In this document: positions 20,528 through 37,208 of the stretch, in pieces
Layout: the number at the start of each line of letters is the position of its first letter
How positions within the stretch are numbered: position 1 is the first letter of the stretch
DNA from: Bacillota bacterium
Lineage (GTDB): Bacteria; Bacillota; UBA4882; UBA10575
DNA: 37,867 nt
Assembly: GCA_012838955.1 (NCBI GenBank)
Contig: DUOH01000061.1
Span: 1 to 37,867 of the forward strand
Direction of reading: 5' to 3'
The notes under the pieces: model-generated
Seen by the model: the letters and a program-made list of their open reading frames with translations, nothing else
Told to the model about the DNA's origin: nothing
Databases searched by the model: none
Position numbers and translations under genes: made by a program

Positions 20528-20557
20528 AAAGACTGTCCGTATGGACAGTCTTTTTTT
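20528..20557 (+). terminator. Rho-independent terminator after rpsA
   Basis: AAAGACTGTCC, loop GTAT, GGACAGTCTTT and a run of T: an 11-base-pair stem with a tetraloop and a U tract, 27 bases after rpsA. It ends the long asp23-to-rpsA block. Confidence 0.92.
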
Positions 20558-20621
20558 GTGCGCCTGAATCGAAGATTTTCTTTTCCTCCGGTATTGGATG
20601 GGACTTACGGTGAAATAATAA

Positions 20622-20787: not shown

Positions 20788-21465
20788 ATGAATATTGGGA
20801 TCCTACTCTTAATCGGGGTTGGCATATTGATCCTGCTTGGCCTGGCTCAACAGGTTCTGGATAGACTTTATCTCACTGATAAACAGGCCTTGATTCTGCT
20901 AGCCGCGATTATCGGCGGTAGCTTCATTGATCTGCAGCTGTACCGAGGAACTCCGGAGATCTCGGTGAATCTCGGAGGGGCGATTATTCCGGTGACTGTG
21001 GGTATTTATGTGTTATCCAGGGCAGGAACTAGGAAGGAACTGGTACGGGGGGTGATGGGCGCTCTCATTTCCGGGCTGGTACTCTACGGGGTCTCAAAGT
21101 TCTACGAATTCGATACCCATACCGGTTTTTTAGACCCGCAATACTTATGGGGTCTGCTCACCGGAGCAGTGGCCTATCTGATCGGTCGCTCGCGCAGACT
21201 GGCCTTTATCTGCGCTACCTTTGGCGTAGTCTTGGCTGACCTGGCCCATGCGGTGGAAGCCATCAGCAAGGGTCTGCCCTCACCCACCCGGATCGGAGGC
21301 GCAGGTGGCTTTGATACGGTAATCATTGCCGCGATCATTGCCGTGGTATTAGCGGAGTTGATCGGAGAATCCGGGGAAAGGTTACAAGGCGGGCCGGTGC
21401 GTTCGGAGGAAAGACCTAAAGGGCTCTTAGAACCTGATCACTGGGAGGGAGGGAATGAAGATTAA
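20788..21465 (+). CDS. DUF1614 family membrane protein
   Basis: A 225-residue integral membrane protein with about six or seven hydrophobic segments, starting with a membrane helix. Residues such as IGGSFIDLQLYRGTPEISVN, GGAIIPVTVGIYVLSRA and GAGGFDTVIIAAIIAVVLAE match my recollection of the DUF1614 family, which is of unknown function. ACAGGAGG is seven bases before ATG 20788. The gene overlaps the SpoIIP-like gene by 11 bases. The association with sporulation genes suggests an accessory membrane role during engulfment or spore envelope formation, but this is inference. Confidence 0.75.
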   Translation: MNIGILLLIGVGILILLGLAQQVLDRLYLTDKQALILLAAIIGGSFIDLQLYRGTPEISVNLGGAIIPVTVGIYVLSRAGTRKELVRGVMGALISGLVLYGVSKFYEFDTHTGFLDPQYLWGLLTGAVAYLIGRSRRLAFICATFGVVLADLAHAVEAISKGLPSPTRIGGAGGFDTVIIAAIIAVVLAELIGESGERLQGGPVRSEERPKGLLEPDHWEGGNED

Positions 21466-22582
21466 GGTTAAAATCAGCCGGTTTTCTCTGGGAATATTCC
21501 TTCTGTTGGTAGCCGGTCTGTCCTGGCCGGTGTCTGGAGAAGGAGAAAGAACAGACGGGCACTATTCCATGGTGGATCAGGAGGGAAGAGTGATCTGTCG
21601 AACAGCCCATCGTTTGGAGCGGGGCGATGAATATTTAACCGCCGACAATTCCCTGTACAGAGTGGAATCCGTCGAAGGAGACCGGGCTCATGTACGCTTT
21701 GTAAAAAAAGTACAGTTGACCGCCTCTCCGTCCTTTCTCTCGCAAGTGGGCCGGAAGATTCGGGCCTTGGTGAGGGGCGGCAGCGCGGCAGAAGATGAAT
21801 GGGGATTACCCGCTCAAGCCAAGGAAAGGCCGGTTGCCATCTATCATACGCATTCCGATGAATCATATGTGCCGACCGAGGGCCGGGCTAGTGTGGAGAA
21901 GGAGGGCGGGATCATAGAAGTTGGTGAGGCCTTTGCGCAAGCGTTGAAAGAACGCGGTATACCGGTGGTTCATGACCGAACCTCCCATGTCCCCCATGAT
22001 TCTATGTCTTATGACCGCTCGCGTCGGACTGCCATAGAACTGTTGAAGAAGAACCCCATTGCCTTGGTGGATATTCACAGGGATGCGGTTCCCCGGGAGG
22101 AATATACGGATGAAGTTAACAATACAACCATCTCCAAAATACAGTTTGTCGTTGGCAGACAGAACCCGAACAAAGGTGCGAATGACGCCTTTGCCAGGCA
22201 AATCAAAGCGGAAGTAGATAAAAAGTATCCTGGGTTGGTCAAGGGGATCTTTTATGGCAAGGGAAAGTACAATCAGGATTTGGCGCCTCGGTTGATCCTG
22301 ATTGAGGTAGGAACCCATACCAATACCAGGCAGGAAGCGGAGCGGGGGGCGGCGATCTTCGCTGCGGCCGCCCGAGAAGTCCTGGCCCGACCGGTCCGGA
22401 CGGAAAGAAACGTCAAGCAAGGCTCAGGCCGATCCTTGTTATGGATTATCGGTCTGGCTGCGGTCGGAGTAGCCATCTTTCTGGCGCTGAATGGCGGATG
22501 GAATAAGATTCGAAGTGAGGTGGGGAGAATGTCCGGGGATAGTGATTCCGGAGGAGAGCATGACTCACCGGGAGAGGAATAA
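21455..22582 (+). CDS. SpoIIP-like cell-wall amidase
   Basis: A 375-residue exported protein of the stage II sporulation protein P family, an N-acetylmuramoyl-L-alanine amidase and endopeptidase that with SpoIID remodels peptidoglycan during engulfment. It has an N-terminal signal or anchor helix. The catalytic domain (about 125-310) begins with IYHTHSDESYVPTEG (H131, H133 and E136), followed by VDIHRDA and LIEVGTHTNT, the other metal and active-site elements. A C-terminal helix (SLLWIIGLAAVGVAIFLAL) is a second possible anchor. GGGAGGGA precedes ATG 21455. Whether it is the main SpoIIP or a paralogue cannot be told here. Confidence 0.88.
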   Translation: MKIKVKISRFSLGIFLLLVAGLSWPVSGEGERTDGHYSMVDQEGRVICRTAHRLERGDEYLTADNSLYRVESVEGDRAHVRFVKKVQLTASPSFLSQVGRKIRALVRGGSAAEDEWGLPAQAKERPVAIYHTHSDESYVPTEGRASVEKEGGIIEVGEAFAQALKERGIPVVHDRTSHVPHDSMSYDRSRRTAIELLKKNPIALVDIHRDAVPREEYTDEVNNTTISKIQFVVGRQNPNKGANDAFARQIKAEVDKKYPGLVKGIFYGKGKYNQDLAPRLILIEVGTHTNTRQEAERGAAIFAAAAREVLARPVRTERNVKQGSGRSLLWIIGLAAVGVAIFLALNGGWNKIRSEVGRMSGDSDSGGEHDSPGEE

Positions 22583-22973
22583 AGTAAAAGTGGTTTACCA
22601 TTGGTCCGGCTCCGGAAATATAGGCGCCTTGGCCGCCGCTCTGCATCTGGGATTTTTGGCAACTACAGACGGTGGTTCTCAGGTGGCCACGGAGATAAAC
22701 CTCCCCTTTGAGGGAGGTTTTACCGGTAAAAATCAAGGATCTCTCTGCTTTGTAGGGCGGGCCCGGGAAGGGGAGGAGATTTATATATTCCCCAGGGGTA
22801 AAAAACCTGCTTTACCTCTGAAGACACTCAAAGAGACGGTCCGGCTCCTCGAAGCGGACCCTGCCGATTATTATTTGGTGGATTGTGATTTCTGCTTAAA
22901 ACAGGGGAAAAGCCAGGTCTTGATCACCCTCAGCCGGATTGTAACTCAAGTCAAAGAGGAGTTGGCGGATTGA
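22560..22973 (+). CDS. DUF3189 family protein, first copy
   Basis: A 137-residue protein of unknown function. Its start VKVVYHWSGSGNIGALAAAL resembles the DUF3189 N-terminus, but it lacks the Cys and the Gly-Ala-His-Ser stretch seen in the second copy. The C-terminal half contains CDFCLKQG. GGAGGAG four bases before ATG 22560 gives the start; the frame is open further upstream inside the SpoIIP gene. It overlaps the SpoIIP-like gene by 23 bases and the next gene by four, so all are co-translated. Confidence 0.75.
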   Translation: MTHRERNKVKVVYHWSGSGNIGALAAALHLGFLATTDGGSQVATEINLPFEGGFTGKNQGSLCFVGRAREGEEIYIFPRGKKPALPLKTLKETVRLLEADPADYYLVDCDFCLKQGKSQVLITLSRIVTQVKEELAD

Positions 22974-23428
22974 AGGTGATCTACCATTGCCATGGAGGTG
23001 CCCATTCGTCGGTGGTCGCCGCTCATCTGCACTTAGGAAATATCCCGATGCAGGGTGAAGTTCCACCGGAGGCGATCATGCTGCTGCCCGAATTCGACCG
23101 GGCCACCTCGGAGGATTGGGGAAGTCCCAAGCTGGTTGGGGTGGACGGACAGGGAAACCAGGTCTATATCTTGGGCTTGGGCAGAAAAACAGCCATTTGT
23201 ATTAGAGCGGCCACTTCTTTATGCCTGCAGTTGAGGAAAGGCGGTGAGGTGGTCTTCGTGGAAACTCTGTCTTCCATCGGCGCGTTGACCAGAATCGGTG
23301 GCTTCACCTCTAAAGTGTTGGGAGCTGAACATTTAGGGAGAACCCTGGCGGCCAGAGGGATCGTCAAATCCCTGGAGCGGTTGAGACAGTTAGTCGCCTC
23401 CACTAAAAAAATATATGGAATGGAATGA
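22970..23428 (+). CDS. DUF3189 family protein, second copy
   Basis: A 152-residue protein whose N-terminus MKVIYHCHGGAHSSVVAAHL has the canonical DUF3189 signature (YHC-x-GGAHSS). The family is widespread in spore-forming Clostridia and has no assigned function. The loop resembles a P-loop or phosphatase-like active site, but that is only suggestive. It begins with TTG overlapping the stop of the first copy (TTGA). The middle part is GNQVYILGLGRKTAICIRAA, and an ETLSSIGALTRIGGFTSK segment follows. Confidence 0.8.
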   Translation: MKVIYHCHGGAHSSVVAAHLHLGNIPMQGEVPPEAIMLLPEFDRATSEDWGSPKLVGVDGQGNQVYILGLGRKTAICIRAATSLCLQLRKGGEVVFVETLSSIGALTRIGGFTSKVLGAEHLGRTLAARGIVKSLERLRQLVASTKKIYGME

Positions 23429-23432
23429 AGAG

Positions 23433-24002
23433 ATGATTCCCAAAAAAATCATTATCATCACTGACGGTGACGGCAACGCCAAAGCAGCGGTGGAAAAGGC
23501 CGGGCAGAATCTGGGTCTGCGGACGATCTCCTTATCTTCGGGAAACCCTACGCTCATCCCCAAAGAAGAACTGGTTGACCAGATTCTGCATTGCCAAGGG
23601 GAACCCGTATTGGTAATGGTGGATGATGCTGGCGCCCGGAGAAAAGGCGAGGGTGAGCAGAGACTGGAGGGCTTGGTCAAAGACGAACGCCTCCAGGTCC
23701 TGGGAGTCTTGGCTGTGGCCTCGGATACGGAAAAAGTTGAGGGCACGCCGGTTGATCTATCCGTGAACCGCCAAGGACAAATACTGCGCCGACCTGTTGA
23801 CAAAGAAGGTCACGCCGAAAGGAAAGGCCGGTTCAGAGTAGAGGGGGATACTGTTGATATTTTAAACCGGTTGGACGTGCCGATTGTGGTAGGAGTCGGC
23901 GACCCCGGAAAGATGGGTGAAGCCGATGCGGTGGAGGACGGAGCACAAATCACCACCCTGGCTATTAAAGAAGTGTTGAAACATCATGGTTTGACTCACT
24001 GA
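23433..24002 (+). CDS. Stage V sporulation protein AE1-type protein
   Basis: A 189-residue soluble protein of the SpoVAE1 family (the soluble protein named with spoVA genes, not the membrane SpoVAE). Recognised parts are KKIIIITDGDGNAKAAVEKA, ISLSSGNPTLI, a VLVMVDDAGARRKGEGEQ stretch, VLGVLAVASDTEKVEGTPVD and VPIVVGVGDPGKM. SpoVA proteins move dipicolinic acid into the spore; the precise role of this subunit is unclear. No spoVAC or spoVAD gene is nearby. The N-terminus at ATG 23433 is chosen by homology; an ATG at 23415 is in frame, and both have weak ribosome-binding sites, so coupling to the preceding gene is likely. Confidence 0.85.
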   Translation: MIPKKIIIITDGDGNAKAAVEKAGQNLGLRTISLSSGNPTLIPKEELVDQILHCQGEPVLVMVDDAGARRKGEGEQRLEGLVKDERLQVLGVLAVASDTEKVEGTPVDLSVNRQGQILRRPVDKEGHAERKGRFRVEGDTVDILNRLDVPIVVGVGDPGKMGEADAVEDGAQITTLAIKEVLKHHGLTH

Positions 24003-24105
24003 CCCGGCAAGGCTCGCGTACGGATTAGCGGATAACTGTGGCGGTAATCATTTACTGGTGACGGCGGACGCCATCAAGGTTAGAAAGTGAGGGAGGGAGC
24101 AGTAA

Positions 24106-25104
24106 GTGCGGATCGGTTTACCCAGGGCCTTGTTATATTACTGGTTTGGTCCGGCCTGGAAAGCTTTTTTGCAGGAAATCCGGTTAATGCCCGTGGTTTC
24201 AAGGATGACCACCAAAGAGATTCTAAAGCAAGGGGTGCGGGTGGGTGTAGACGAGGCTTGCCTACCGGTCAAGGTCTATCTGGGCCATTGCTTGAACCTG
24301 ATGTCCGAGTGTGATTTGTTGTTGGTCCCCCGGATCGTGAACCTCAGAAAGAAAGAGTTCATCTGTCCTAAATTCATGGGCTTACCGGAGATGGTAAAGG
24401 CGGCAGTAACCAACGAATACGGGCCTGAAGGAAAGGAGCGGGTTTTAGTTTGGAAGAGTGAGCACCGTTCTTTCTGGGATGCCCCTCCAGCCTTACCTGA
24501 TTATCTACGAAAGCTGGCTGGACCCGGGAAGATCAAGACTGGTCTACACCGGGCCAAACAGGTGTTCCGGGAGTACCGGGCACTTTTACACCAAGGATAT
24601 CTTCCGGACGAGGCCGAGGAGATACTGGCCGGAAAAAATGTACACCGGCGGGAACAGGGAGCAGCTGGCCTCGGAGTGATCGGGCATCCCTATTGCCTAT
24701 ACGATCATTTTTTAAATATGTCCTTATTAACTTTACTGCAGAGGAGGGAGTATAACTATGCTGTCTTTACTCCGGAACTCTTCTCTGAAGAGGAGCTCTC
24801 TGCAGAAGTGGCGGATTTAGCCAAACCAATCTTCTGGACTTTGGGCCGGAGGATGCTCGGCGCCGTACGGGCCTTACGAAAGAAGCATGTGGCCGGTATC
24901 ATACATCTTGCTGCATTTGCCTGCGGACCTGAGGCTCTGATCGGCGAATTGATTCGCCGGGAATGTCAAAGCTACGGTTTACCACTCTTACAGATCAATC
25001 TGGATGAGCATTCGGGGGAAGCCGGATTGTTAACGCGGATCGAGGCTTTTCTTGATCTAATCAATACTCACGCTCACAGAAGGGAGGGGATAGGATGCGG
25101 GTAA
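24106..25104 (+). CDS. Acyl-CoA dehydratase-related iron-sulfur protein (COG3580/DUF2229 type)
   Basis: A 332-residue protein of the DUF2229/COG3580 group, a relative of the 2-hydroxyacyl-CoA dehydratase subunits. Four conserved cysteines are candidates for an Fe-S cluster: C52 (VDEACLPVKVYLGH), C87 (EFICPKFMGLPE), C197 (GHPYCLYDHF) and C273 (FACGPEALIG). The ending LLQINLDEHSGEAGLLTRIEAFLD is also conserved. GGGAGGGAGC sets the GTG at 24106. It is followed by the COG3581 partner, overlapping by ten bases, and then by an activase, so the three probably form one complex. The substrate is unknown. Confidence 0.88.
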   Translation: MRIGLPRALLYYWFGPAWKAFLQEIRLMPVVSRMTTKEILKQGVRVGVDEACLPVKVYLGHCLNLMSECDLLLVPRIVNLRKKEFICPKFMGLPEMVKAAVTNEYGPEGKERVLVWKSEHRSFWDAPPALPDYLRKLAGPGKIKTGLHRAKQVFREYRALLHQGYLPDEAEEILAGKNVHRREQGAAGLGVIGHPYCLYDHFLNMSLLTLLQRREYNYAVFTPELFSEEELSAEVADLAKPIFWTLGRRMLGAVRALRKKHVAGIIHLAAFACGPEALIGELIRRECQSYGLPLLQINLDEHSGEAGLLTRIEAFLDLINTHAHRREGIGCG

Positions 25105-26198
25105 CCTTTCCCCACATGGGACAATTATCCATTCCGGTCAAGGCGTTATTTGAAGGCCTCGGACACGAGGTGGTAGTTCCGCCGGTTACCAATAAATTCA
25201 CTTTTGAGCTTGGCAGCAAATATGCGCCGGAATTTGCCTGTCTCCCCTTTAAGATTAATTTGGGCAATTTCATCGAAGCCTTGGAAGCTGGGGCGGACAC
25301 CGTGGTGATGGGCGGTGGGGTCGGACCTTGCCGGTTCGGCTATTATGCGCAGGTTCAAAGAGAGATCCTGCAAGATTTGGGTTATAATTTTCAGCTTTTG
25401 CTCCTTGATCCGCCAGGCGCCGGTACCAAGGAGTTGTCAAAAGCAATCAAGCTGTTAGCAGAAGCGGCCTCGCCCGGTAGGATCCTCTCCGCGCTCCGTT
25501 TGGCTTGGGTGAAGACCAGATTACTGGATGAAGGAAACCGACTATATAGAATGCAAGCGCCGTATATTCTCCCAGATAATACAGTCCGTCAAATCTATGG
25601 GGATTTCTTAGACCAAATTGACCGGGAGAATCGGGTAAACCGCCTGCTTAAAATCTATTCTACCTTTACGGTCAAAATTAATCAGCTCAGAAAAGAGGTG
25701 AAGCCGAAGCCGGTCTTACGGGTAAAAATTATCGGTGAGATCTATATGGTTCTTGAACCCAAGGTCAATTTCGATCTCGAAGACAGGCTAAGTGAATTAG
25801 GAGTGGAAGCGCACCGTCAGATCTCGATGAGCGGATGGGTAGAGGAGCATCTATTCGGTGTGTTCTTTCCTCACCATGCAAAACGGAGAAAATGCTTGGC
25901 TAAACCATATTTATCAGCCTTTGTGGGTGGCCATGGACAAGAAACCGTGGCTGAGACGGTGGATGCCGGAGTCAACAAGTATGATGGGGTGATTCAGGTG
26001 TTACCCTTTACCTGCATGCCGGAGATCGTCGCCCAAAGCGTCCTTCCGGAGATTAGCCGGGATTTTGCCCTGCCTATCCTCTACTTAGTCTTGGATGAGC
26101 ACTCAGCGGAGGCTGGGATCCATACCAGGCTGGAGGCGTTTGTTGATCTGATGGCCAGAAAAAAAAGAGCGCGCGACCTGCGTGCGAAGATCATGTAA
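25095..26198 (+). CDS. Acyl-CoA dehydratase-related iron-sulfur protein (COG3581 type)
   Basis: A 367-residue partner of the previous protein, also in the 2-hydroxyacyl-CoA dehydratase superfamily. Cysteines at C49 (PEFACLPFKINLG), C79 (GGGVGPCRFGYY), C267 and C307 (LPFTCMPEIVAQS) occur in the typical places. The end (LVLDEHSAEAGIHTRLEAFVDL) repeats the motif at the end of the COG3580 gene, showing common ancestry of the two. ATG 25095 lies within the previous gene after GAGGGGA. In many organisms the COG1924, COG3580 and COG3581 modules are fused into one large protein; here each is a separate gene. Confidence 0.88.
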   Translation: MRVTFPHMGQLSIPVKALFEGLGHEVVVPPVTNKFTFELGSKYAPEFACLPFKINLGNFIEALEAGADTVVMGGGVGPCRFGYYAQVQREILQDLGYNFQLLLLDPPGAGTKELSKAIKLLAEAASPGRILSALRLAWVKTRLLDEGNRLYRMQAPYILPDNTVRQIYGDFLDQIDRENRVNRLLKIYSTFTVKINQLRKEVKPKPVLRVKIIGEIYMVLEPKVNFDLEDRLSELGVEAHRQISMSGWVEEHLFGVFFPHHAKRRKCLAKPYLSAFVGGHGQETVAETVDAGVNKYDGVIQVLPFTCMPEIVAQSVLPEISRDFALPILYLVLDEHSAEAGIHTRLEAFVDLMARKKRARDLRAKIM

Positions 26199-26221
26199 GA
26201 GGAATGTTAAGGGGATTGAGC

Positions 26222-27199
26222 ATGAAAAAGCGTTTGTATCTAGGGGTGGACGTCGGTTCGGTCAGCACCAATTTGGTAGTCATCAATGAACAAGGCGATG
26301 TTTTAGAAAAACTCTATCTGCGTTCGGAAGGCAATCCCATCAAATCTGTGCAAAAAGGGCTGGCGCACTTGGGGGAGACCATTGCCAAACACACCTTACT
26401 GGGGGTCGGGGTGACCGGTTCCGGCCGACAATTAATCGGGAGGATTCTCGGGGCGGATTTGGTCAAGAATGAGATTACCGCCCATGGTATGGCTGGGTTG
26501 TTTACGGATCCGACCGTGAAGACCATCATTGAAATCGGTGGTCAGGACTCGAAGTTGATTTTAGTGCGCCAGGGTACAGTGGTGGATTTTGCCATGAATA
26601 CGGTCTGTGCGGCGGGAACCGGATCTTTCCTGGACCAACAGGCCGGCCGCTTGAATATTTCCATCGGTGATTTTGGAGCCATTGCCCTCCGCTCCAAGTA
26701 TCCGGTGCGAATCGCCGGGCGTTGTTCGGTCTTTGCCGAATCGGATATGATTCATAAGCAGCAAATGGGCTATCCTTTGGAGGATATTGTCGCCGGACTC
26801 TGTGAGGCTTTGGTCCGGAATTACTTGAATAACGTGGGAAAGGGGAAGGAAATTCTACCGACCGCGCTCTTTCAAGGGGGAGTGGCGGCCAACGCCGGGA
26901 TCAAGGCGGCTTTCGAAAAAGAACTGGGCTTTGCCGTGAAGGTTCCAGAGCATTTTGAGGTAATGGGCGCTTTAGGCGCCGCCCTTTTGGTGCGGGAGTC
27001 GAAGATGGAAAATGGTGAAGAGACCAGCTTTCGTGGTCTGCGGCTCTGCGAAGCGGAGATTGCCATTGATAGCTTTACTTGTTCCGACTGTCCCAACCAT
27101 TGCGAAGTTGTTACAGTCCTCATCGGTCAGGAGCGGATCTCCGGCTGGGGCGACCGGTGCGGTAAATGGCAACACTTAGCGAAAGAGGCTACGGGATAA
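26222..27199 (+). CDS. BcrA/BadF/HgdC-type ATPase activase (COG1924)
   Basis: A 325-residue ATPase of the acetate/sugar kinase fold, which delivers one low-potential electron to dehydratase-type partners by ATP hydrolysis. It has YLGVDVGSVSTNLVVINE (phosphate loop), IIEIGGQDSKLI, and the two cysteines that share a [4Fe-4S] cluster between subunits of the dimer, C129 (TVCAAGTGSFLDQQA) and C168 (AGRCSVFAESDMIH). QGGVAANAG is the second nucleotide loop. A C-terminal extension has C287-x2-C290-x3-C294 and C313, which may hold another metal site. AAGGGG before ATG 26222 fixes the start. It follows the COG3581 gene by 23 bases. Confidence 0.93.
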   Translation: MKKRLYLGVDVGSVSTNLVVINEQGDVLEKLYLRSEGNPIKSVQKGLAHLGETIAKHTLLGVGVTGSGRQLIGRILGADLVKNEITAHGMAGLFTDPTVKTIIEIGGQDSKLILVRQGTVVDFAMNTVCAAGTGSFLDQQAGRLNISIGDFGAIALRSKYPVRIAGRCSVFAESDMIHKQQMGYPLEDIVAGLCEALVRNYLNNVGKGKEILPTALFQGGVAANAGIKAAFEKELGFAVKVPEHFEVMGALGAALLVRESKMENGEETSFRGLRLCEAEIAIDSFTCSDCPNHCEVVTVLIGQERISGWGDRCGKWQHLAKEATG

Positions 27200-27249
27200 A
27201 GTAAGCGATTTTCCACGTACCTGTGATTAATTGGAAGGATGGAGCAGGA

Positions 27250-28887
27250 GTGAAATTCAGACAGTATTTTCGCCGTCCCAAAAAACTCAAGGAATTATGC
27301 GAAGAAAAAGAGACTCCCCGGCAGCAGCAGGGGGAGGAAGGCCCGTTTCTCACCGCGTGTTTGGCGGATAATGTCAATTACCTAAAGAAAAGGCTTGGTG
27401 AGAGCGAAGATGTAATCTTTCGGGAATACACTCTGGATTTATCCGAACCCATTCCCGTGATGGTAGTATTCGTTGACGGTCTGGTCTCCAAAGAAGTGAT
27501 TAACGAGTTCATTCTACAGTCCCTGACCTTCAAAGGCGAACTCAAAACCGAGTGGGCCAAAGACCGCTCCCAGTTGTTAAAGCATATCAAGGATCGGGTG
27601 CTGAACATTAATGAGGTCAGCATGGTCTCGAGTTTTCCGAAACTCTTCACCATGGTGTTGTCCGGGGAGACCGCCCTCTTAATCGAAGGGCATGATGAGG
27701 CCTTGATCTGTAACACCAGAGGCTGGGAACACCGGGGAATCGCCGAACCCCAAGTTGAGGCGGTGATCAAGGGACCGCGGGTCGGGTTCAATGAAATTCT
27801 CCGCTCTAACACAGCACAGATTAGAAGATGGATTAGAGATCCGCATCTCACCATCAAGACCATGCAGATTGGCAAGAGATCCAAGACGGATGTGGCCCTC
27901 GTTTACCTGGAGACCGTGGCCAACCCCAAGATTGTTCAGGCTGTAGAGAAAAGGCTTAAACAGATCGATATTGACGGGGTGATAGAGAGTTCATTCTTGC
28001 AGGATATGATCGAAGATAAACCCTTTAGCCTCTTTCCCACCGTACAGAGTACGGAACGGGCCGACCGGGTGGTAGCCTCCATCCTCGAAGGCAGGGTGGC
28101 GGTGCTTTGCGATAATACACCTTTTGTGCTAATGGCGCCGGTAACCTTCTGGCAACTCTATCACGCGGCGGAGGACTATTATCACCGCTGGCCGCTGGCC
28201 TTTCTATTACGGACAGTACGGTATCTATCCTTCTTATTCTCCTTGTATCTTCCTTCCGTTTATATAGCGCTTTCTTTGTATAACCCGGAATTAATCCCTT
28301 TTAATCTGGCGGTAAAGATCGCCGCGACCCGGGAGGGTGTGCCTTTTCCCGTTTTTCTCGAGGCTTTGCTGATGGAGATCGCCATTGAGATCATTAGAGA
28401 AGCCTCCGCCCGCCTTCCCGGGCCTTTGGGTCAAACCATCGGGATCGTCGGCGGCTTTATTCTGGGAGACGCCGCAGTACGGGCCGGCCTAATCTCCCCA
28501 ATTACTACAATCGTGGTGGCCTTGACCGCTTTGAGTTCATTTACCGCCCCCAGCTTTGAAGTAGCAGTGACCATGCGCCTTCTACGCTTCCCACTCATGT
28601 TCTTTGCCTTGATTGGGGGGTTGTACGGGATCGCCATCGCCACGATTCTGCTATTGATCCACATGTCGGGGATCCTGTCTTTCGGTGTGCCGTATCTCGC
28701 ACCTGTAGTCCCCTTTAGTCTGGATGACTTAAAAGACACTTTCTTTACAGTACCGCGGTGGGCTATGATCAACCGGCCTTCTACCTTTAAAGCGATTGAC
28801 CAAAAACGGAAGGGAACAAAGGCGAACCGGTGGTGGCAGGAGATTTATAAACCGCCACAACTGGAAGGGGACGAGGAAGAAGAGTAA
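27250..28887 (+). CDS. gerKA: Spore germination receptor subunit A (GerA family)
   Basis: A 545-residue GerA-family protein, the A subunit of a germinant receptor in the spore inner membrane. The N-terminal half (to about 290) is a hydrophilic domain with EPIPVMVVFVDGLV, LLIEGHDEALICNTRGWEHR and RGPRVGFNE-like (IKGPRVGFNEILRSNTAQIR). The second half is hydrophobic with about four or five membrane segments and the signature PFPVFLEALLMEIAIEIIRE. GGAG followed by six bases gives GTG 27250; the frame is open 27 bases upstream. It starts 50 bases after the activase and is coupled to gerKB. The germinant cannot be told. The letter K is used by analogy only. Confidence 0.93.
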   Translation: MKFRQYFRRPKKLKELCEEKETPRQQQGEEGPFLTACLADNVNYLKKRLGESEDVIFREYTLDLSEPIPVMVVFVDGLVSKEVINEFILQSLTFKGELKTEWAKDRSQLLKHIKDRVLNINEVSMVSSFPKLFTMVLSGETALLIEGHDEALICNTRGWEHRGIAEPQVEAVIKGPRVGFNEILRSNTAQIRRWIRDPHLTIKTMQIGKRSKTDVALVYLETVANPKIVQAVEKRLKQIDIDGVIESSFLQDMIEDKPFSLFPTVQSTERADRVVASILEGRVAVLCDNTPFVLMAPVTFWQLYHAAEDYYHRWPLAFLLRTVRYLSFLFSLYLPSVYIALSLYNPELIPFNLAVKIAATREGVPFPVFLEALLMEIAIEIIREASARLPGPLGQTIGIVGGFILGDAAVRAGLISPITTIVVALTALSSFTAPSFEVAVTMRLLRFPLMFFALIGGLYGIAIATILLLIHMSGILSFGVPYLAPVVPFSLDDLKDTFFTVPRWAMINRPSTFKAIDQKRKGTKANRWWQEIYKPPQLEGDEEEE

Positions 28888-28888
28888 A

Positions 28889-29998
28889 ATGAGGCAAAAA
28901 AAGGAACGTTTCATAACAATACGGCAGACTGTCCTATTGATTATCTGTTTTAGCATAGGTGGGGGTATTCTTTACTTACCGAATACCGCAGCAAAAGTCC
29001 TGCAATCCGGCGGTTGGTTATGGATCTTCGGCGTCGGCCTACTGGTGATCTTGAGCGGGTTAATTACTGCTTTCTTAATACGGATGTTTCCTGAGGATAC
29101 CTTGGTTGAACTCAGTCAAAAACTTCTGGGTAAACCCCTGGGGATAGCGGTAAGCTTGATGCTGATCCTCTTCTTCTTCTCCTTTGTCCCCTTGGAGGTG
29201 CGTATTCTCCAGGAATTAGTTAATATTTCGATTTTACAGCAAGCTCCGTTCTGGTTTGTGGGGGGTCTATTCCTGTTGACCCTGGCTTATGCCGCTTCTC
29301 AAAATATCAAATCCATAGTCTATGTTAATGAACTATTAATGGAGATTGCCTTAGGAGTCGGCCTGGTCGTTACTGTTTTGGCTTGGCAACACTTTGACCC
29401 CGTTCATCTACTGCCTGTTTTCGGGGAGAGCCGGATCAACCCAGCGCATTTTCGGGAGGAATTAGGGGTGGCTTACATCTATACGGGGTTTCCCGTGATC
29501 TTCTTCTTAGTTCCCTATCTTAAACTCCCACAAAAGGTGGTAAAAGCTACTTTCATCGGCACTGCCTTCCTTACCTTGATCTATACTTTCTTTACCCTGA
29601 CTGTGCTGGGGGTCTTTGGCTATAAAGAAACGCTTAATCTGACTTACCCCGGATTAGAGCTGGCTAAGTCGGTGAACTTGGAGACCGTGATTCTGGAACG
29701 CTTGGATTTGGTCTTAATCGTCTCTTGGATCTCCGCCATCTTCACTACCTGTTTGGTCTCTTACTTCTTTACCGCGTTGAGTATCAGTAAACTGTGTGGT
29801 TTTAAAAGTCACTCCCTGGTGGCCTGGGCATTAGCGCCGCTCACCTATTATCTGAGCACCTTATTCACCAACTATTTCGTATGGAAAGAATACAGCGCCT
29901 ATCTGGGATTCTTCGCCCTATTGGTCACTGTGCTCCTACCGGCAATTCTCCTGATTGCCGCCTTGATTAAACGCCGTAGTATACAGGGGAATCAGTGA
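28889..29998 (+). CDS. gerKB: Spore germination receptor permease subunit B (GerB family)
   Basis: A 369-residue membrane protein with about ten transmembrane segments, of the APC-superfamily spore germination permease type. The N-terminal RQTVLLIICFSIGGGILYLP, LISGLITAFLIRMFP-like and the FFEVRIL... region (FVPLEVRILQELVN) are family features. GAGGAAG is followed by ATG 28889, with one base between this and the gerKA stop; the frame stays open 93 bases into gerKA, but that N-terminus is unlike the family. The B subunit is thought to bind the germinant. It is followed by the lipoprotein subunit after 67 bases. Confidence 0.92.
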   Translation: MRQKKERFITIRQTVLLIICFSIGGGILYLPNTAAKVLQSGGWLWIFGVGLLVILSGLITAFLIRMFPEDTLVELSQKLLGKPLGIAVSLMLILFFFSFVPLEVRILQELVNISILQQAPFWFVGGLFLLTLAYAASQNIKSIVYVNELLMEIALGVGLVVTVLAWQHFDPVHLLPVFGESRINPAHFREELGVAYIYTGFPVIFFLVPYLKLPQKVVKATFIGTAFLTLIYTFFTLTVLGVFGYKETLNLTYPGLELAKSVNLETVILERLDLVLIVSWISAIFTTCLVSYFFTALSISKLCGFKSHSLVAWALAPLTYYLSTLFTNYFVWKEYSAYLGFFALLVTVLLPAILLIAALIKRRSIQGNQ

Positions 29999-30065
29999 GC
30001 AGTGGGGATGACTTCACGGCGTAACTATTTATCTGACTACATAGATGAATTCTAGGAGGACCAGA

Positions 30066-31280
30066 ATGAGAAAGATCTGCTTAAGCCTATTCGTCGTCTT
30101 CTTCAGCTGGACACTGACCGGCTGTTGGGCGGGGCGAGAGCTCAACCAACGGGCTTTCGTCACGGCAGTAGCCTTTGATCTGGCCCAACCTGAAAATGAA
30201 AGTAACCCGGGCGCGCCTGGGAACGGCCGGAACAAAGAGGATAAAACCGAGACGAAGCAGGCAGTATCCGCTCAGGAGAAGTTGGAGATCAGTCTGCAGA
30301 TTCCCAAACCGGACCAAGTTGCCGGAGAGGAAGGCGGCGGCGGAGGCGGTGGTGGAGAGAAAGCCTTTTTAGTATTGAGCGCGACCGCTGATTCGTTTCT
30401 GAACGGAGTATTACAGATCCAGCAACAACTGGACAGGGAGTTGTTCTTCGGGCATGTCCGGTTGATTATGATCGGAGAAGATTTAGCCAAAGAAGTAGGG
30501 ATCGAAAGAGTGGTGGACTTTGCCAACCGTTGGTTTCAAATTCAGCGCATGTCCAGATTGGCTGTGGTGCAAGGAAGAGCCGAGGAGGTTTTATCCATGG
30601 CTCCTCCGATCGGGCAGTCTACTTCCGCCTACATCCTCAACCTGATCTCCCCGTCCAGCGGCAGCAGCCTCATTTATATTTCGGACTTGGGGAAGTACAA
30701 TGTATACCAAGCGGATGACGGCATTGATCCGGTTTTACCACGAGTAAAAAAAGGAAAAACATCCATTGAGACCGGAGGCGCGGCCATAATTAAAGACGGC
30801 AAACTGGCGGGGTGGTTGACGCCCTATGAAACTCGAGCTCTAGATATTTTACAAAACGAATATCAAGAATCAAATTATGTGATCGCCTCTCCTCTTCACC
30901 CGGAGGATTTGATCGTCATCGGCTTGGTGAAGGCCGGTTCTGTCTATAGGATAAAAAAAGAGGGGCGGAGTTTCAGAGTAAAGATTGAGATTTCTGGAAG
31001 TTTTGAAACCAGAGAGTTCTCCGGTGATTACGGGCCAGCTGATCTTGAGGCGAAAGATTTGGAGAAAAGAGTGGCGGCCAAGGTTCGACAGGAGGCGGAG
31101 GCGACCATTGGCCGAGCACAGGCTGTGGCAGCGGATATATTCGGCATCGGCAGAATGATCAAAGCCCGTTATCCCAAGGACTGGCAGAAGCTGGACTGGG
31201 CGGCTGAATTCTCCAAATTGCCTATAGAAGTAACAGTTGACATGAGATGGTCGCAGACAATCAGAAGACTTGGCCGCTAG
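30066..31280 (+). CDS. gerKC: Spore germination receptor lipoprotein subunit C (GerC family)
   Basis: A 404-residue lipoprotein of the Ger(x)C family, the third germinant receptor subunit. The signal peptide ends in the lipobox LTGC with C20 as the lipidated residue, followed by WAGRELNQRAFVTAVAFDL, typical of GerC. A variable low-complexity insert (about residues 40-70) and an octaglycine run (about 90-97) precede LVLSATADSFLNGVLQIQQQ and FFGHVRLIMIGEDLAKEVG. AGGAGG six bases before ATG 30066 sets the start. It completes a gerA-type operon with the two previous genes. Confidence 0.92.
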   Translation: MRKICLSLFVVFFSWTLTGCWAGRELNQRAFVTAVAFDLAQPENESNPGAPGNGRNKEDKTETKQAVSAQEKLEISLQIPKPDQVAGEEGGGGGGGGEKAFLVLSATADSFLNGVLQIQQQLDRELFFGHVRLIMIGEDLAKEVGIERVVDFANRWFQIQRMSRLAVVQGRAEEVLSMAPPIGQSTSAYILNLISPSSGSSLIYISDLGKYNVYQADDGIDPVLPRVKKGKTSIETGGAAIIKDGKLAGWLTPYETRALDILQNEYQESNYVIASPLHPEDLIVIGLVKAGSVYRIKKEGRSFRVKIEISGSFETREFSGDYGPADLEAKDLEKRVAAKVRQEAEATIGRAQAVAADIFGIGRMIKARYPKDWQKLDWAAEFSKLPIEVTVDMRWSQTIRRLGR

Positions 31281-35238: not shown

Positions 35239-35304
35239 AAATATGATTAGTAAAATATTGGAATTATGGTAATGATATTACAATTAACAAAGGAGATGAA
35301 GCGC

Positions 35305-36258
35305 GTGAAGAAAAGAGCGCTAAAAGTCATGGTCTTGGTTTTAAGTTTTGTAATCGCCTTTACCGGTTGCGGGGGAGGGGGTTCGTCAGGAGGGTATAAT
35401 CCGCCTCCGCAGTATCCGGAGAACCCGGTCGAACCGGAGAACCCGGTCAAACCGACGAACCCGCTTCCAGTTGTCCAGCCGGAGGAAGCGAATGTTAAGA
35501 TCACTATAAAAAATATAGCTGGTCCGGTGGAATTTCCATGTCCGCCCGGGCATTATGAAAATAGAGGAATGGGACGAGAAACCTGGCTTGAACTTGTGGT
35601 TTATGAAACAGCCAAGATGTATTCTGTAGATTACGAGCCTTACCGTGGGGCGAAGGTTTTTACTACGGATGCTGAATATCATCTTCAGCTTTCTCCGGGT
35701 ATTGAGTATACAATTAAAGCATATGTTTATAAGGTTTTACTAGTGTCTATTGATCAAGTTACATACAAAATTAAAGTTATTCCCCTCGCTGGACAGGGCG
35801 ATATTACGATAACAGGTGGAAAGATGGAAAATCTCGAAATAGAATTAGAAAAGTTTTCCGTTCGTAATATAGCGGCGGGGTCGGCGGAGGTTGAAGGAGG
35901 GGAACGTATTACTATGGAGAGTGAACTGTATTCCCCGGTCGGCATTCATTCATTTGATGGTGGCCATTTAAAATTTTTCTTTTACTATAAAAAAACTGGC
36001 GGAGAAGAATTGCTTGAAACCGATGATGATGCTAAAATTAGTGAGATTAACGCCAAAGAATCATATCCATGCCCTATTTCAGGGTGGACGAAGCCAGTAT
36101 TAGATGATACGACATATGATTTCTGGATGGGGTATCATATGGGTGGTATTCAGGAAGACTTATCAGTTTTTTGTTATATTTTCTTTCCGGATATGGCCCA
36201 TCAAATCAAGGTTACCAAGATGGAAGATGCTGGTGAACTGATTATCGGAGTCAATTAA
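35305..36258 (+). CDS. Secreted lipoprotein of unknown function, first of a pair
   Basis: A 317-residue protein with a lipoprotein signal peptide: basic start, hydrophobic core and lipobox AFTGC, with C22 as the lipid site. A Gly/Ser patch and a Pro-rich PENP-type linker (ENPVEPENPVKPTNP) follow. The mature part is beta-strand rich and has no recognised motif; it includes QGDITITGGKMENLEIELEK. AGGAG at 35291-35295 spaces nine bases to GTG 35305; the ATG at 35296 directly abuts it and is unlikely. The gene shares layout with the next gene, suggesting duplication. The function is unknown. Confidence 0.75.
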   Translation: MKKRALKVMVLVLSFVIAFTGCGGGGSSGGYNPPPQYPENPVEPENPVKPTNPLPVVQPEEANVKITIKNIAGPVEFPCPPGHYENRGMGRETWLELVVYETAKMYSVDYEPYRGAKVFTTDAEYHLQLSPGIEYTIKAYVYKVLLVSIDQVTYKIKVIPLAGQGDITITGGKMENLEIELEKFSVRNIAAGSAEVEGGERITMESELYSPVGIHSFDGGHLKFFFYYKKTGGEELLETDDDAKISEINAKESYPCPISGWTKPVLDDTTYDFWMGYHMGGIQEDLSVFCYIFFPDMAHQIKVTKMEDAGELIIGVN

Positions 36259-36291
36259 TTGAAATGATCTAAAGAGAGGAGTGTGATTATC

Positions 36292-37208
36292 TTGAAGAAG
36301 CAGGTAGCTATTTCTTCTACCCTAACCCTATTACTGCTATTGTGTTTATTTTAACCGGTTGCGGCTCAAGATCTTCCGGGCTGCCTCCGCAGGAACTGGC
36401 AAAAACACCGGTGAAAGTCAGTGGGGGCCTTCCCCCCGGAACTCCGGGCACTGGGATGGTAAGATTTACGGTCACCGTCCCGGAGGGCCCTTCTGCTTAT
36501 CCAAACTTGAAGCCAGGCACAAGAGAAATCCCGGCGGGGACAGAAGAAATAAAGGTCTATATTTATGGTAAAGATGTAGAGTATAAGGAGGTTGTAGGAT
36601 ACTTCGATTGGTTTGAATTTGAAGTCAAACCGGGCACAAACACCATCGATTGTTCCATGGTGGTTCCGGTCGGTGAAGGCTATGATATACTAGTTTTGGC
36701 TTCGGATGATGATTACACTCTAACTATCGGTAGAGCTACGGGAGTGAAAATTGGTTCTGGGGAAAATAAGATCAGTATTACCCTTGAGAGGTTAAAAATT
36801 AAAAATCTCACTGTTCAACCAGAAGGCGCCAACTTGACAGCAACTTTTGATATGACATGTCCGATTGATTTAGATGAGTCCTGTTACCTGCGAAATGTCG
36901 AAGTCTTACTGGTCAGCAAGAATGATAATTTGGACGAAACGTGTCTTTGTTCTTCTCAATCAATAAATGATCTTCCGGCCAACACATCAAGACGTTTGAA
37001 TCTGACGCTGGAAGGCCCTCCACTATCGGGGGAGGAGGAAAAGGTTTATGTTTGCCCTCTTCTTCAATTTTTTATAGGTTTTAAAACAAGTGAGTATACT
37101 AGTACTGGTTGCAATGTAACTTACGTTAAACAAGATCAAAGCCCGCTTTTTGAGGTTACACTTAAAGGTGATGGAACCTGGGGCAATCTTAACATTGAAG
37201 TTAATTAA
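36292..37208 (+). pseudogene. Second secreted lipoprotein, interrupted by a frameshift in its signal peptide
   Basis: A GAGGAG site leads to TTG 36292, which encodes 20 residues (KKQVAISSTLTLLLLLCLF after the initiator) before a TAA at 36352-36354. The remaining body continues in another frame with LTGCGSRSSGLPP, a perfect lipobox, and runs about 285 residues to 37208. One extra T in the TTTT run at 36349-36352 would join signal peptide and lipobox exactly. The downstream frame has only a GTG at 36342, with no ribosome-binding site. The body has IGSGENKISITLERLKIKNL, a match in layout to the first lipoprotein, and both end in a short GVN or EVN. The break may be a real mutation, a sequencing error or phase variation. 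Confidence 0.8.

Follow-up and report, generated by a model that had tools for sequence, protein, structure and literature searches.

A probable forespore-expressed iron-sulfur enzyme trio behind the spoVA genes of anaerobic spore-formers

Why should three genes for an iron-sulfur redox system sit directly behind sporulation genes? The question is raised by contig DUOH01000061.1 of a Bacillota bacterium (GenBank assembly GCA_012838955.1; GTDB lineage Bacteria; Bacillota; UBA4882; UBA10575), of which positions 1 to 37,867 of the forward strand were analysed and are referred to here, at their full length, as the window. At 20788-27199 the window carries a run of sporulation genes that ends in a trio encoding a COG3580 protein, a COG3581 protein and an activase of the HgdC type. 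Our answer, to which we give a probability of roughly 0.75, is that the three proteins form an ATP-driven iron-sulfur enzyme of very low potential, expressed in the forespore and accessory to the SpoVA genes that anaerobic spore-formers carry. The original prediction, made from the sequence alone, was that the trio may act on a substrate left unnamed, perhaps while spores form, lie dormant or germinate; co-occurrence, spore-gene linkage and forespore-type promoters all lend it support.

Few spore loci are as well studied as the spoVA operon, although most of this work concerns aerobic Bacillus and Clostridioides difficile; in many anaerobic spore-formers, the three genes that come after it encode chemistry that ranks among the most strongly reducing in known biology. 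If the trio does act in the spore, anaerobes would be carrying out a low-potential reduction at the expense of ATP in a compartment generally regarded as almost inert. A redox step so far undescribed thus probably takes place inside the spores of anaerobic bacteria, and DUF2229, COG3580 and COG3581, all families of unknown function, gain a first biological context. What is new is the developmental setting of a known enzyme superfamily, along with the extension of the activase and the splitting of the subunits; no description of the link was found in the open-access literature, a search that does not establish priority. That literature gave no relevant match for COG3580, COG3581 or DUF2229 and no connection between an activase and sporulation, and the sporulation regulon and gene-list papers examined mention neither an activase nor a coenzyme A (CoA) dehydratase. 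A control search for a PF09989 protein in Bacillus subtilis found none, and the spoVA operon in the sigma-G table of C. difficile (PMC3789822) consists of CD0773-CD0775 alone.

Linkage to spore genes and forespore-type promoters

COG3581 is present in all 29 genomes of the window's class, and in essentially all of those whose contig reaches far enough, the trio stands behind DUF1614-spoIIP-DUF3189x2-(spoVAEa), after cmk-ispH-rpsA; because the run recurs class-wide in this manner, a chance arrangement is excluded. Outside the class, a scan of named genomes placed the trio behind canonical spoVA genes in Thermincola, Pelotomaculum, Desulfofundulus, Desulfovirgula, Syntrophomonas, Fervidicola, Orenia, Natroniella and Halonatronum. 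The order in Halonatronum is dacF-spoIIAA-AB-sigF-spoVAA-AB-AC-AD-AEb-AEa-AF-trio, then one EamA-like gene and lysA, with Pfam matches to SpoVAA, AB, AC, AD, AEb and a GerA-type SpoVAF behind dacF, spoIIAA, spoIIAB and sigF; in B. subtilis, lysA comes directly after spoVAF.

The comparison set outside the class comprised the 80 nearest loci in other Bacillota. A recognised neighbour lay upstream of COG3580 in 66 of the 80, in every case a SpoVA or DUF3189 gene, and the gap between the two was below 550 bp in 63 of these 66. Linkage of the trio to spoVA genes extends over 31 GTDB family codes outside the class, is conserved and operon-like, and holds behind spoVAEa/AF even where AC-AD-AEb lie elsewhere (loci L139, L148 and L150). 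An even sample of the phylum (249 genomes) was then scored for SpoVAD at its cut-off and for COG3581 of the window's type at E<=1e-60. Among the matches listed, 109 genomes held both genes, and in 75 of them the two were within 20 kb, with COG3581 in every case downstream of SpoVAD and on its strand, at a median distance of 2.9 kb; 26 of the other 34 genomes were inspected, and 18 had spoVAEa, spoVAF, sigF or a run of the window's type directly upstream. Three further trios, all of one family, adjoin DUF421/YetF and YheC/D-type spore genes.

Linkage was matched by co-occurrence. SpoVAD passed its cut-off in 214 of the 249 genomes and COG3581 of the window's type was found in 177, divided as 171/214 SpoVAD-positive versus 6/35 SpoVAD-negative genomes (Fisher p 8e-13, a value that ignores shared ancestry), i.e., the trio type is lost together with sporulation genes. 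With these counts, and with at least three genomic contexts showing spore-gene linkage (the spoVA operon, the rpsA-spoIIP-DUF3189 run and the DUF421/YheCD neighbourhood), the trio is neither equally common in non-sporulating relatives nor unlinked to spore genes elsewhere. The adjacency to gerKABC that the original prediction had also pointed out is real in the window's order, but is not seen elsewhere, and such local linkage, unlike that to spoVA, was rejected as the main signal.

The promoters point to the forespore. With no more than one mismatch allowed, sigma-F/G-type sites were found in the 200 bp upstream of COG3580 in 35 of 156 distinct loci, all ending 22-100 bp before the match, against 1-5 in dinucleotide-model shuffles and 5 on the reverse strand; the housekeeping genes in these loci gave 1 of 177 and first spoVA genes 18 of 56. 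Trios without adjacent spoVA genes had a forespore-type promoter in 11 of 26 cases, e.g., GTATG-N18-CATACTA in L137. In the window's class, a sigma-G-like site (<=2 mismatches) lies upstream of DUF1614 in 25 of 26 loci versus 4.2 in shuffles; it reads GAATT-N17-GATAATA in most class loci and GTATT-N18-AATAATA, at 20591-20620, in the window, and another family has a sigma-F-like GCATA...GGAAAATCTA at this position. By consensus, then, the promoters are of the sigma-F/G type; control by sigma-E or sigma-K was rejected, as such sites showed no enrichment.

Several observations on these loci are recorded for their own sake. In L137, L146, L147 and L162, the genes before the trio code for a membrane protein of the DUF421/YetF type and for ATP-grasp proteins of the YheC/D type (by Pfam in L137 and L147), and strong sigma-G-type promoters are present at the trios in this context in L137, L146 and L147. 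COG3581 also occurs alone, without COG3580 or activase, in L035 (9738-10811), L043 (9658-10731), L039, L045 and L131, directly downstream of spoVAC-AD-AEb in L035 and convergent with these genes in L043. Two records titled Deltaproteobacteria and Desulfovibrio (L074 and L095) hold Firmicute-type spoVA-trio loci, L074 with spoIIA-sigF as well, and are probably mis-binned or mis-named metagenome assemblies. A DUF1657 gene near the trio in L141 (12327-12551) recalls the spoVA2mob gene set (DUF1657, DUF421).

The gene run in the window

In the window itself, eight plus-strand genes lie head to tail between a terminator behind rpsA and gerA, as follows:

20528-20553, plus strand: intrinsic-terminator-like hairpin (11 pairs, then a T run), setting rpsA apart from the spore operon
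20591-20620, plus strand: candidate forespore-type (sigma-F/G-like) promoter, a consensus match with 2 mismatches
20788-21465, plus strand: DUF1614 membrane protein (start ATG at 20788; PF07758, 51 bits)
21455-22582, plus strand: SpoIIP-family peptidoglycan amidase/hydrolase with a C-terminal membrane anchor (PF07454, 220 bits; TIGR02867)
22560-22973, plus strand: DUF3189 protein a (PF11385)
22970-23428, plus strand: DUF3189 protein b (PF11385)
23415-24002, plus strand: SpoVAEa, also called SpoVAE1 (PF14097, 223 bits; NF052647, 186 bits, under its 200-bit cut-off)
24106-25104, plus strand: COG3580 subunit, DUF2229 plus the C-terminal part of HGD-D (invariant Cys52, Cys87, Cys273)
25095-26198, plus strand: COG3581 subunit of the HadBC/DCCP/BzdNO fold (invariant Cys49, Cys79, Cys307)
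26204-27199, plus strand: activase, BcrAD_BadFG, HgdC type (TIGR00241, 177 bits; invariant Cys135 and Cys174; extra C-terminal Cys motif)
27223-31280, plus strand: gerA-gerB-gerC germinant receptor operon, adjoining the trio in the window's gene order only

Every gene named from the letters alone was found in its place on this strand, with profile matches confirming the families, and the order first read from them (overlapping or abutting sporulation genes, COG3580-COG3581-activase, then the ger operon) was borne out, the "SpoVAE1" of that reading belonging to the SpoVAEa family. All junctions in the run overlap or abut, the sole exception being 103 bp between spoVAEa and COG3580. The longest open reading frame of DUF3189 protein a begins at 22491, and ATG 22560, which directly follows GGAGGA, is the more likely start.

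The genome (2.52 Mb in 67 contigs) carries spoVAC-AD-AEb on another contig, C45, without AEa, AF or trio, so what lies in the window is the other half of the spoVA cluster, spoVAEa and the trio, displaced and joined to the rpsA-DUF1614-spoIIP-DUF3189 run. It also has a second complete trio on contig C36 (115880-117959; L050 8222-11466), a spore-clade paralogue without adjacent spore genes that lies between an aldose-epimerase-like gene and anthranilate/tryptophan-type genes. The SpoIIP of the window is the second of the genome: the two paralogues are at 21455-22582 of the window and at 8516-9127 of L204, and the window copy stands behind the candidate forespore-type promoter, whereas the classical spoIIP of B. 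subtilis belongs to the mother cell (sigma-E). Farther along, at 35266-37208 and downstream of trpS, the window encodes two neighbouring, related-looking lipoprotein-like secreted proteins to which no family was assigned.

Fold and cysteines of the three proteins

AlphaFold (AF2) models of the two subunits were of high confidence (pLDDT 93.1 for COG3581 and 92.8 for COG3580). When these were compared with the PDB, the matches at E<=1e-3, 17 for each subunit, were exclusively DCCP, HadBC, BzdNO and MbdON chains, with TM-scores of 0.43-0.58 normalised by query. Judged from the models, membership of the activase-dependent reductase/dehydratase superfamily is certain and the relation distant. A sequence search with COG3581 against the PDB gave nothing convincing, fold comparison alone yielding matches, and the C-terminal third of COG3580 has detectable sequence similarity to DCCP (E 6e-7). 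The three cysteines of each subunit are invariant (60/60 and 54/54), as are both cluster cysteines of the activase, Cys135 and Cys174 (30/30). The trio accordingly combines a two-Cys BcrAD_BadFG activase with partners of the HadB/HadC/DCCP fold that have three cluster cysteines each, and the very-low-potential electron delivery proposed from the sequence alone draws support from both the fold and the invariant cysteines.

The activase has one feature of its own. Its matches to solved activators stop near residue 274 of 331, and beyond lies a tail with the spacing Cys293-x2-Cys296-x3-Cys300...Cys319, possibly the site of an additional iron-sulfur cluster. This CxxCxxxC...C stretch at residues 293-319 is absent from the solved HgdC, HadI and DCCP-R activators.

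How the clusters of the heterodimer are arranged is the point on which the strongest rival explanation turns, i.e., that it is an intersubunit double-cubane ([Fe8S9]) protein reducing small molecules like the DCCP of Carboxydothermus, in place of HadBC-type single cubanes. For both subunits, the PDB chains closest in fold are those of DCCP, and the 3+3 invariant cysteines of the heterodimer equal the six of the double cubane; neither chain, however, has six conserved cysteines alone, and three per chain is the HadB/HadC pattern. We regard a double cubane across the interface as rather unlikely. A double cubane within one chain was rejected, for six cysteines are needed and only three are conserved, and the three per chain fit a HadBC-like pair of open [4Fe-4S] clusters. 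No natural COG3580-COG3581 fusion was seen among the loci examined, and the window's genes include no CoA-transferase or acyl-CoA gene, in agreement with the first observation that acyl-CoA metabolism is not represented nearby.

Alternatives, proposed action and known relatives

A more ordinary explanation would be that the trio is a vegetative metabolic enzyme, e.g., a 2-hydroxyacyl-CoA dehydratase or a small-molecule reductase, found near spore genes by inherited order. The wider PF09989 family occurs in 231 of the 249 genomes, SpoVAD-lacking ones included and often as fused proteins of ~1440 amino acids, so that spore-specificity of the whole family was rejected; paralogous trios of the same genomes sit in non-spore contexts (L050-L058), and there are the 43 spore-gene-bearing genomes without the trio type. 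Yet the spore association outlasts relocation among the three contexts described above, sigma-F/G-type promoters stand directly before the trio even where no spoVA gene adjoins it, and among the SpoVAD-lacking genomes tested, a member of the spore clade was seen in just one, a fragmentary genome, on a short contig. A carefully built tree has a branch (support 100/99) that parts four SpoVAD-negative homologues and four paralogues from every spore-linked row, and a larger tree, made quickly, likewise places a fifth SpoVAD-negative homologue, whose branch is very long, outside the spore clade; the sixth such case (G228) is the contig edge of the fragmentary genome, whose relatives have SpoVAD. 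A vegetative role is, on balance, improbable. Fused DUF2229-containing proteins of ~980-1490 amino acids are widespread, with G006 and G015 among the many genomes that encode them; they occur in SpoVAD-negative genomes too, and look like a vegetative counterpart of the trio.

A part in anaerobic dipicolinate (DPA) metabolism, as an alternative DPA synthase or in reductive DPA handling, would explain a place in the DPA-channel operon beside spoVAC-AD-AEb and recalls the reduction of aromatic rings by the related benzoyl-CoA reductases, but is very unlikely, with DPA made in the mother cell (PMC5629000) and the trio promoters of forespore type, with the trio behind spoVAEa/AF even where the channel genes lie elsewhere, and with dpaA in 144/171 SpoVAD-positive genomes with the trio versus 40/43 without it (p 0.22), a lack of anticorrelation on which replacement of the DPA synthase was rejected.

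For a forespore enzyme accessory to SpoVA, the reading that we prefer, the following course may be envisaged. RNA polymerase with sigma-G (or sigma-F) would transcribe the trio in the forespore, and its proteins would become enclosed in the spore core. Reduced ferredoxin would load the activase dimer, in which the four-Cys tail may provide an extra entry cluster, and ATP hydrolysis would drive single electrons into the COG3580/COG3581 heterodimer, predicted to hold one open [4Fe-4S] cluster per subunit and to reduce or dehydrate a small substrate. In the window's class, the spoVAEa-trio half has moved behind rpsA-DUF1614-spoIIP-DUF3189 while spoVAC-AD-AEb stayed elsewhere. As to the time of action, germination and the return to growth are tentatively favoured over late forespore maturation, which is nearly as likely, because SpoVAEa and SpoVAF, encoded nearest to the trio, have their role in germination: in B. 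subtilis they affect DPA release and early germination ion flux, not DPA loading (PMC11841064). A bolder version, doubtful as it stands, would give the anaerobic endospore core a dedicated ATP-driven super-reducing enzyme as the soluble arm of the SpoVA germination/DPA machinery, performing a redox reaction for dormancy or metabolic restart, possibly through an intersubunit double cubane.

A number of points weigh against the forespore reading. The trio type is absent from 43 of the 214 SpoVAD-positive genomes, and the trio is for this reason accessory and not essential for spores; the genomes are related, so that the counts are not independent, and homologues outside the spore clade sit in vegetative contexts. 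The promoters are consensus matches only, and the window trio has no close site immediately upstream of COG3580 (the best has 4 mismatches), so that this copy would depend on the operon promoter with its 2 mismatches. A dormant core is expected to hold little of the ATP and reduced ferredoxin that the enzyme requires, and searches for expression or protein data on the trio, including transcriptomes and proteomes of trio-bearing species, found none.

The trio has features in common with several known systems and differs from each of them. With HgdAB/HadBC and their activators HgdC/HadI it shares the fold of both subunits (3o3m), three invariant cysteines per subunit and an ASKHA ATPase fold with two bridging cluster cysteines (1hux, 4eht), but it differs in its 11-15% identity, its split COG3580/COG3581 architecture, the lack of CoA-pathway genes nearby, its forespore-type promoters and spoVA linkage, and, relative to the solved activators of ~270 amino acids, the four-Cys C-terminal extension. 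DCCP with its reductase DCCP-R (6eno, 7yyl) is the top structural match of both subunits, whereas the trio has three, not six, conserved cysteines per chain, heterodimer genes, a longer activase and a spore context. The benzoyl-CoA reductases BzdNO and MbdONPQ (8s02, 9gai) belong to the same fold and activase families, but at 11-13% identity, and no aromatic degradation genes were seen adjoining the trio. In relation to the spoVA operon (spoVAA-AF) of Bacillus and Clostridia, the trio occupies the place between spoVAEa/spoVAF and lysA, immediately after the former, and has a forespore promoter of the same type, and yet, unlike the SpoVA proteins, it represents soluble iron-sulfur enzymology and not a membrane channel.

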